From contig JAENZP010000013.1 in NCBI GenBank assembly GCA_016841205.1, positions 31,231 to 95,230 of the forward strand: DNA of 64,000 bases, in the 5' to 3' direction. The notes under the pieces were generated by a model, which did no database searches, had not been told where the DNA came from, and worked only from the letters and a program-made list of their open reading frames with translations. Numbering within the stretch: position 1 is the first letter of the stretch; every line of letters starts with the position of its first letter. This DNA comes from Desulfoscipio geothermicus. GTDB taxonomy: Bacteria > Bacillota > Desulfotomaculia > Desulfotomaculales > Desulfallaceae. Made by a program: the position numbers and the translations under genes. This document shows, piece by piece, positions 15,040 through 16,727 of the stretch.

Positions 15040-15063
15040 TGTCAAATGTCAAGGTCTGACCCC
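15040..15063 (+). repeat. Dispersed repeat copy 1
   Basis: TGTCAAATGTCAAGGTCTGACCCC. Confidence 0.95.
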
Positions 15064-15317
15064 ATTATTATTTTAACAAAGAGAAGGAAATTGGCAGATG
15101 CTATTTGAATATGTACATATACGGTTTGTAGCTGAGCTCAAATGGGTGTAAAAGTACGGAAATCATGTGACGCATAATAGAAATTGGTAGGCAGAGTTAC
15201 CGGAAAAAGATGCGCAATCGGGAAGCCAGACTAAAGATGGTTAAGCTGTACCAGTAAATTTATGTAGGTAGCACTAGTGATAAGTATAAAATATTTTAAT
15301 AGGCAGGTGCTAATAAT

Positions 15318-15992
15318 ATGAAAATTATTGGTTTGAACGGCAGTCCGCGCAGGTCCCAAAGCCGTACCGGGCAATTGGTACAAGAGGTATTAAACAGTGC
15401 CCGTACATCCGGCGCTGAAACAGAATATATTAATATAAACGATATTAAGTTGGATTTTTGCATTGCTTGCGGTAAGTGTCATAATGTCGGCAACTGTATC
15501 CTAAAGGATGATTTTGAGCCATTAATGGCTAAAATTATGAATGCAGATGGATTAGTAGTAGGGAGTCCGGTATATATTTACCAAATAACAGCCCAATTAA
15601 AAGTATGGGTTGACCGTTTGGGTGGACCGACCATCCACTGTCAAAAGCTTCTTGGAAAATACGGAGCAGTAGTGGCTACCTCCGGTAATGCCGGTGAAAA
15701 TGAAACTGCCAAATATCTTGAAGCTACACTAATTAATACGGGCATGCAATGTGTAGGGCGAATTGCCAGCGGCATTGAGGTTGATGGCCTGCTGAGTGCT
15801 GACTCCCCCTTAATGCAAAGTGCCAAAGCATTAGGCCTTTCCCTGGTCCAGGCAATTGAAAACAAGCAGGAATTTCCTGAACAAATCCAAGCCCATCAAC
15901 AATTTAAGGAATTTTTCCGTTTTGTTGTGCTCAAACAACAGGAAGCCTGGAACTGGGAATATAAATACTGGCAAGAAAAAGGATGGCTATAA
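15318..15992 (+). CDS. Flavodoxin-fold NAD(P)H-dependent FMN reductase / iron-sulfur flavoprotein
   Basis: MKIIGLNGSPRRSQSRTGQL...CIACGKCHNVGNCILKDDF...GSPVYIYQITAQLKVWVDRL. Confidence 0.9.
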   Translation: MKIIGLNGSPRRSQSRTGQLVQEVLNSARTSGAETEYININDIKLDFCIACGKCHNVGNCILKDDFEPLMAKIMNADGLVVGSPVYIYQITAQLKVWVDRLGGPTIHCQKLLGKYGAVVATSGNAGENETAKYLEATLINTGMQCVGRIASGIEVDGLLSADSPLMQSAKALGLSLVQAIENKQEFPEQIQAHQQFKEFFRFVVLKQQEAWNWEYKYWQEKGWL

Positions 15993-16032
15993 AAATATTA
16001 AGCTAAAAGCATTTAGCTTTTTAATTTACAGA

Positions 16033-16064
16033 CCCCCGCTAAGTCTAAATAGCGGGGGTTTTAT
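16033..16064 (+). terminator. Intrinsic terminator after the flavoprotein gene
   Basis: ACCCCCGCTaagtctaaatAGCGGGGGTTTT. Confidence 0.85.
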
Positions 16065-16082
16065 ATTTACCATTGCACGGTT

Positions 16083-16106
16083 TGTCAAATGTCAAGGCCT
16101 GACCCC
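16083..16106 (+). repeat. Dispersed repeat copy 2 (one mismatch, GGCCTG)
   Basis: TGTCAAATGTCAAGGCCTGACCCC; overlaps the 3' end of mug. Confidence 0.95.
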
Positions 16107-16606
16107 AACAACTCCTTTAAACCACCGTAAATCATTACAACCTCGTCCAACTTCATGTGTACTAAACCACTTGACGAAGGGGCTACAAAGTCAGTTACCC
16201 CAGATACTATGGATTCTTCTTGTTTTCCCCAGGGTACATTCCGCTGGCCGCTGTATTTTTCGTATACTCCCTTTCCAACAAAGCACACTACAAGCGGTCT
16301 GTAATACGATATTTTCCTGTATAATTCCAAACCGCCATTCTTATATTCCTGATTCGTTATCTCGGCAGCCGCCCGGGTGGGAGTGGGCACAATATTAGTT
16401 ATACCATACCCCAGCTTTAGCAAACCAGCATCCTCCTCCGGCCTGTATTTTCGAGGTGTTAACCCGGCCCGGTACAAGATGTTCCAGAACCGGTTGCTCG
16501 GGTTGGCAAAGTGGTGCCCGGTTTCAGAGGAGCGAATACTGGGGTTATAGCCCACAAAGATTATTTTAAGGTTTTTCTCTAGAATATCCAGAACTGGCTT
16601 TAACAT
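16085..16606 (-). CDS. mug: G:T/U mismatch-specific DNA glycosylase
   Basis: 'IIFVGYNPSIRSSETGHHFANPSNRFWNIL', 'GITNIVPTPTRAAAEI' TDG/Mug motifs. Confidence 0.9.
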   Translation of the reverse strand: MLKPVLDILEKNLKIIFVGYNPSIRSSETGHHFANPSNRFWNILYRAGLTPRKYRPEEDAGLLKLGYGITNIVPTPTRAAAEITNQEYKNGGLELYRKISYYRPLVVCFVGKGVYEKYSGQRNVPWGKQEESIVSGVTDFVAPSSSGLVHMKLDEVVMIYGGLKELLGSGLDI

Positions 16607-16704
16607 TTCATTATTCCCTGTATAAAATTTAAAGATTACTTTTTCCCTCGTGCCCCGGAGTTAAGCACTTTTGCTTACGTTTTGGCAAATCGTACAATAT
16701 GGTT

Positions 16705-16727
16705 TGTCAAATGTCAAGGTCTGACCC
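16705..16727 (+). repeat. Dispersed repeat copy 3
   Basis: TGTCAAATGTCAAGGTCTGACCC. Confidence 0.95.

Follow-up and report, generated by a model that had tools for sequence, protein, structure and literature searches.

The window analyzed here, a 64,000-nt stretch of the Desulfoscipio geothermicus genome (G000), contained eight copies, at ≤3 mismatches, of a 24-bp repeat, TGTCAAATGTCAAGGTCTGACCCC, while 100 shuffles of the window gave 0. Near the start of the window, three directly oriented copies at 15040, 16083 and 16705 separated single genes encoding a flavoprotein of the FMN_red family, the DNA glycosylase Mug and the NAD+ diphosphatase NudC (Table 1), confirming the layout of repeats and single-gene modules described in the original prediction. 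The further claim that mug was bracketed almost exactly by two copies held in that copies were present on either side of the gene, and was corrected at one of them, where copy 2 overlapped the mug 3′ end. The last six residues of Mug and the stop codon (GSGLDI and stop) were encoded by the minus strand of copy 2, whereas the C-terminus in a repeat-free genome, G004, was RGRP and stop.

A promoter function of the repeat was considered, given TTGACA on its minus strand, and is not claimed, as 10 promoter-like sites were found vs. 7.9 in shuffles. The TTGACA of copy 3 was part of a promoter-like match upstream of mug (16689–16717, minus strand), which was likewise not above chance.

Table 1. Repeat copies, genes and other features of the array and of the remainder of the window (positions are those of the window).
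Feature	Position	Strand	Remarks
Repeat copy 1	15040–15063	+	TIR/REP single, perfect consensus; at the junction where the window genome is without uvdE
FMN_red family flavoprotein (NADPH-dependent FMN reductase) gene	15318–15992	+	Ancestral neighbor of mug; syntenic in G003 and G004
Terminator-like hairpin (intrinsic type)	16030–16061	+	3′ of the flavoprotein gene
Repeat copy 2	16083–16106	+	1 mismatch; left breakpoint of the G003 mug deletion
mug, G/U mismatch-specific DNA glycosylase (UDG superfamily)	16085–16606	−	Missing from sister genome G003
Repeat copy 3	16705–16728	+	1 mismatch; right breakpoint of the G003 mug deletion
nudC (NAD+ diphosphatase)	16774–17574	+	
Further repeat copy	40247–40270	+	Also in G003, at the orthologous site
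Further repeat copy	48853–48876	−	
Further repeat copy	49192–49215	+	Upstream of 2-oxoacid oxidoreductase-like genes
Further repeat copy	51882–51905	+	Left end of second direct pair; one copy in G003
Two small genes (216 and 218 aa)	51908–53215	−	Inside second direct pair; in repeat-free G002, not in G003
Further repeat copy	53466–53489	+	Right end of second direct pair

The repeat family and its transposase

The window genome (3.38 Mb, 36 contigs) contained 68 copies of the repeat, 41 forward and 27 reverse, and a control search with the reversed pattern gave 0 matches. When no more than 1 mismatch was allowed, 66 copies were counted in G000 and 74 in the genome of its sister species (G003), with 0 in the other five genomes of the genus. 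The 68 copies made up 45 elements, 19 of which were head-to-head pairs with a spacer of usually 10 nt and sometimes 4 nt, the remainder being mostly singles. A head-to-head pair was predicted to fold as a perfect single-strand hairpin (−30.2 kcal/mol, z = −12.6), while a lone copy formed no stable hairpin (−1.7 to −2.1 kcal/mol, z about −0.6 to −1.0). Genome-wide, the 19 of 45 elements are REPINs in the sense of two inverted REPs that form a hairpin; the three copies of the array are singles, hence not REPINs.

Sequence comparison covered targeted stretches surrounding the repeats. Of the 45 G000 elements, about 20 had a repeat at the orthologous G003 site as well, indicating that much of its spread predates the split of the two genomes, and at some places the insertion sites differed between them. 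Comparison with empty sites gave no insertion target rule, the intergenic DNA being too diverged, and several sites showed a short replaced stretch rather than a clean insertion.

A Y1/HUH transposase gene (317 aa, C36:27058–28008) was located on a contig other than that of the window. It was bracketed by the repeat, with a (−) copy at C36:26980 and a (+) copy at C36:27992, the right one supplying the end of the reading frame (LSNVKV and stop). The G003 orthologue was 84% identical and bracketed by the repeat likewise; among the seven genomes of the genus, this transposase clade was restricted to G000 and G003, as was the repeat. The transposases matched PF01797 at 51.6 and 52.5 bits (cut-off 23) and their catalytic motifs were intact, namely NHYHLLLE (HxH) and YIDLNPVRAGLV (class-2 Y---NP). 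Against REP_Tyr_transpos of NCBIfam, the G003 protein scored 83.2 bits and the G000 protein 79.3 bits, just under the cut-off of 80. No C-terminal domain was matched in the Pfam search; residues 204–309, in G000 only, had a weak match to the DnaA C-terminal end of TIGR00362 (E = 8e-4). Related transposases from other families and phyla were bracketed by variants of the same terminal inverted repeat (TIR), e.g., 26 nt at 100% in L253 and 31 nt at 100% in L180, and a plasmid search found distant transposases only.

TIRtrons, with their TIR-associated tyrosine transposases (TIRYTs), are a variant of REP/RAYT systems (Di Nocera et al., 2013; PMC3733652), and TIRYTs constitute subclass 2.1, transposases with DnaA-like C-termini (PMC6006769). 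The element in G000 is like a TIRtron in its Y1/HUH transposase, in long inverted repeats whose outer end, GGGGTCAG, fits the published motif GGGGWSAS, in the dispersal of TIRs as singles, dimers and clusters, and in the overlap of the TIR with the 3′ end of the transposase gene; the weak TIGR00362 match may reflect a similar DnaA-like C-terminus. Judged at the level of sequence, the repeats of the array are single copies of the TIR of a chromosomal TIRtron/TIRYT. The published TIRtron descriptions make no mention of Desulfo- genera (PMC3733652, PMC6006769). With the REP/REPIN and RAYT systems of Pseudomonas and E. coli (PMC3116915, PMC2817692), the family shares a short extragenic repeat in dispersed copies, a main compact unit consisting of inverted pairs, and one related transposase gene per genome. 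It differs from them in that no GTAG/GTGG tag stands beside a short palindrome, GTAG being absent from the repeat, and in that a hairpin forms only when copies are paired.

Ancestral gene order and repeat-bounded loss of mug

Gene order in G004 was lipoprotein, TetR-type regulator, alpha/beta hydrolase, UvdE, FMN reductase, mug and nudC, in which the regulator and hydrolase were named from reading the translations and UvdE from a profile match. Since UvdE, FMN reductase, mug and nudC follow each other in a genome devoid of the repeat, the genes are inherited neighbors and the repeats were inserted later. Based on this comparison, the repeats were added in the lineage leading to G000 and G003, both between genes and into gene ends. 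Horizontal gain of mug was ruled out by its occurrence at the same place in G004. Its placement in G002 also spoke against such a gain, as mug on G002:C21 was flanked by 57 bp matching the flavoprotein gene on one side and by the end of the contig on the other.

The search of G003 proteins did not find mug. Instead, the flavoprotein gene was followed by one repeat and then by nudC, with no mug between them, and at base level the left flank of this single repeat was that of copy 2, and its right flank that of copy 3. The alignment shows two adjacent direct copies as the exact endpoints of the mug deletion in G003, with one copy left behind.

Two further observations concern this gene cluster. 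At the stop of the lipoprotein gene in the window, a 32-bp remnant (14896–14927) matched the alpha/beta hydrolase-like gene of G004 at its 3′ end, and is an older deletion scar at which no repeat is present. A near-full-length mug match with an in-frame TAA was found in G005, along with two broken or partial mug copies elsewhere (L086, L087, L088), none of them with these repeats.

At the second direct pair (51882/53466), the repeat has collapsed to a single copy in G003, and the genes at 51908–53215 stand upstream of cysE in repeat-free G002. A different outcome was seen for uvdE, which was missing from the window genome and present in G003, G004 and G002 (L082:5365–6333, L083:5213–6181). The right flank of copy 1 corresponded to G003 sequence located 111 nt past the uvdE stop; because G003 has no repeat at that place, a repeat marks just one end of the uvdE deletion. 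At the transposase locus, glnA was between two direct copies in G003 and beside pepF in G004; it was missing in G000, where two direct copies remain 45 bp apart (L091:3993–4085). The origin of these 45 bp (C36:28016–28060) was sought and no match was found. Two segments of G000, C7:32136–37347 (5.2 kb) and C13:171399–175272 (3.9 kb), were absent from G003 and had a repeat at one end only, which suggests one-sided, repeat-adjacent deletion or insertion. The window also contained a three-gene 2-oxoacid oxidoreductase-like operon between direct copies (49192–51905), the DNA of which was present at 80% identity in G001, and of which G003 retained only the last ∼165 bp, beside its repeat.

Over 46 kb of aligned G000/G003 DNA, 5 of 20 large-indel breakpoints were within 10 bp of a repeat, an enrichment with p = 4e-7 vs. 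uniform positions and 4e-5 vs. intergenic positions, based on ten indels, with breakpoints treated as independent and intergenic positions defined roughly from ORFs. The two indels flanked by repeats on either side each joined direct copies, and other large indels in the same 46 kb had no repeat at their ends. The one-ended indels and the glnA case are not explained by simple copy-to-copy recombination.

Origin of the array and of the gene losses

The array very probably arose as TIR copies entered the intergenic DNA of an inherited gene order, with deletions between direct copies coming later. The transposase would have acted on hairpin pairs, transposing them as single strands and so spreading the family, and lone copies would then be what is left of such pairs. 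The deletions may have occurred when short direct repeats recombined, annealed as single strands or served for template switching, by analogy with REP sequences in E. coli, presumably with no dedicated cassette recombinase behind them. A homology of 24 bp is close to the minimum for RecA recombination. In E. coli, REP sequences were found at 22 of 90 sequenced novel junctions (PMC3161906), so that short repeats are endpoints of chromosomal rearrangements in both cases, although those in E. coli were duplications and amplifications near lac under stress, whereas those here are fixed interspecies deletions.

The original prediction had seen a gene-cassette series in the array, recognizable by loss, gain or swap of DNA between copies. 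Synteny bore this out in one respect, as the DNA between direct copies at mug was cleanly lost as a unit in G003, and not in others, as no gain, swap or reordering was found and the order of the genes is ancestral. Inheritance of mug and its neighbors in identical order without exchange had been named as evidence against cassettes; the order is inherited, according to G004, and no exchange was found, yet mug was lost in G003. An integron-like or other site-specific gene-cassette array is extremely unlikely, even though repeat and gene alternate regularly over 15040–16728, one unit was cleanly lost in the sister species and integron cassettes also have directly oriented repeats between genes. 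It is contradicted by the repeat-free ancestral gene order, and the genes of the array lie on both strands. A search of the window genome for an IntI integrase (TIGR02249) gave none over the cut-off (best 91.4 bits vs. 265), and neither strand of the 24-mer contained the GTT or AAC core of attC sites (GTTRRRY/RYYYAAC), in keeping with the absence of attC structure. Elsewhere in the genome, most copies were in hairpin pairs or stood alone, not as direct pairs around a gene. The question is thereby settled: the ‘cassette array’ came about as a side effect of repeat insertion and is no cassette system.

Excision by the transposase itself would be another route to the same scar. The TIRYT would cut single-stranded DNA at two direct TIRs, seal the donor and free the gene plus one repeat as a single-stranded circle, much as in the ‘peel and paste’ of IS200/IS605, which would make the array a series of excisable modules; we consider this course of events improbable. 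In its favor, the genome has a HUH transposase whose catalytic motifs are intact and whose TIRs match the repeats, each deletion left a single exact repeat, and HUH REP transposases are able in vitro to cleave single-stranded REP DNA and rejoin it (PMC8266576). However, no reinserted module was seen: mug was present once in the window genome and was missing from G003, and neither G000 nor G003 had a second copy of the 51908–53215 pair among the matches listed; moreover, host recombination predicts the identical product, and the cuts made by REP transposases lie close to the end of the repeat but need not coincide with it. Were excision by the transposase true, dispersed TIRs would make ordinary genes excisable modules and speed gene loss. 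That mug was lost from G003 independently of the repeats, one of which was inserted later at the scar, is very unlikely. Other deletions in the same 46 kb are without repeats at their ends and insertion sites vary between the two species, but the G003 repeat shares the left insertion point of copy 2 and the right insertion point of copy 3 to the base, and the same collapse occurred twice within one contig.

The genome comparison shows clearly that scattered end repeats of a small transposase become exact deletion endpoints for intact ancestral genes, which were removed between direct copies in the case of mug and of the two small genes at the second pair. The repeats are of a known kind (TIRtron/REP), and their value is as a natural example of repeat-bounded gene loss; it is in the link between direct TIR pairs and specific gene losses between two species that they differ from described TIRtrons. 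REP-like families are common, and the losses therefore offer a concrete route by which such repeats shape gene content.

The terminator region beside the single repeat in G003 contained a run of ∼20 G (L082, about 4240–4260). Losses from the one cluster affected different DNA repair genes in the two sister species, uvdE in G000 and mug in G003.
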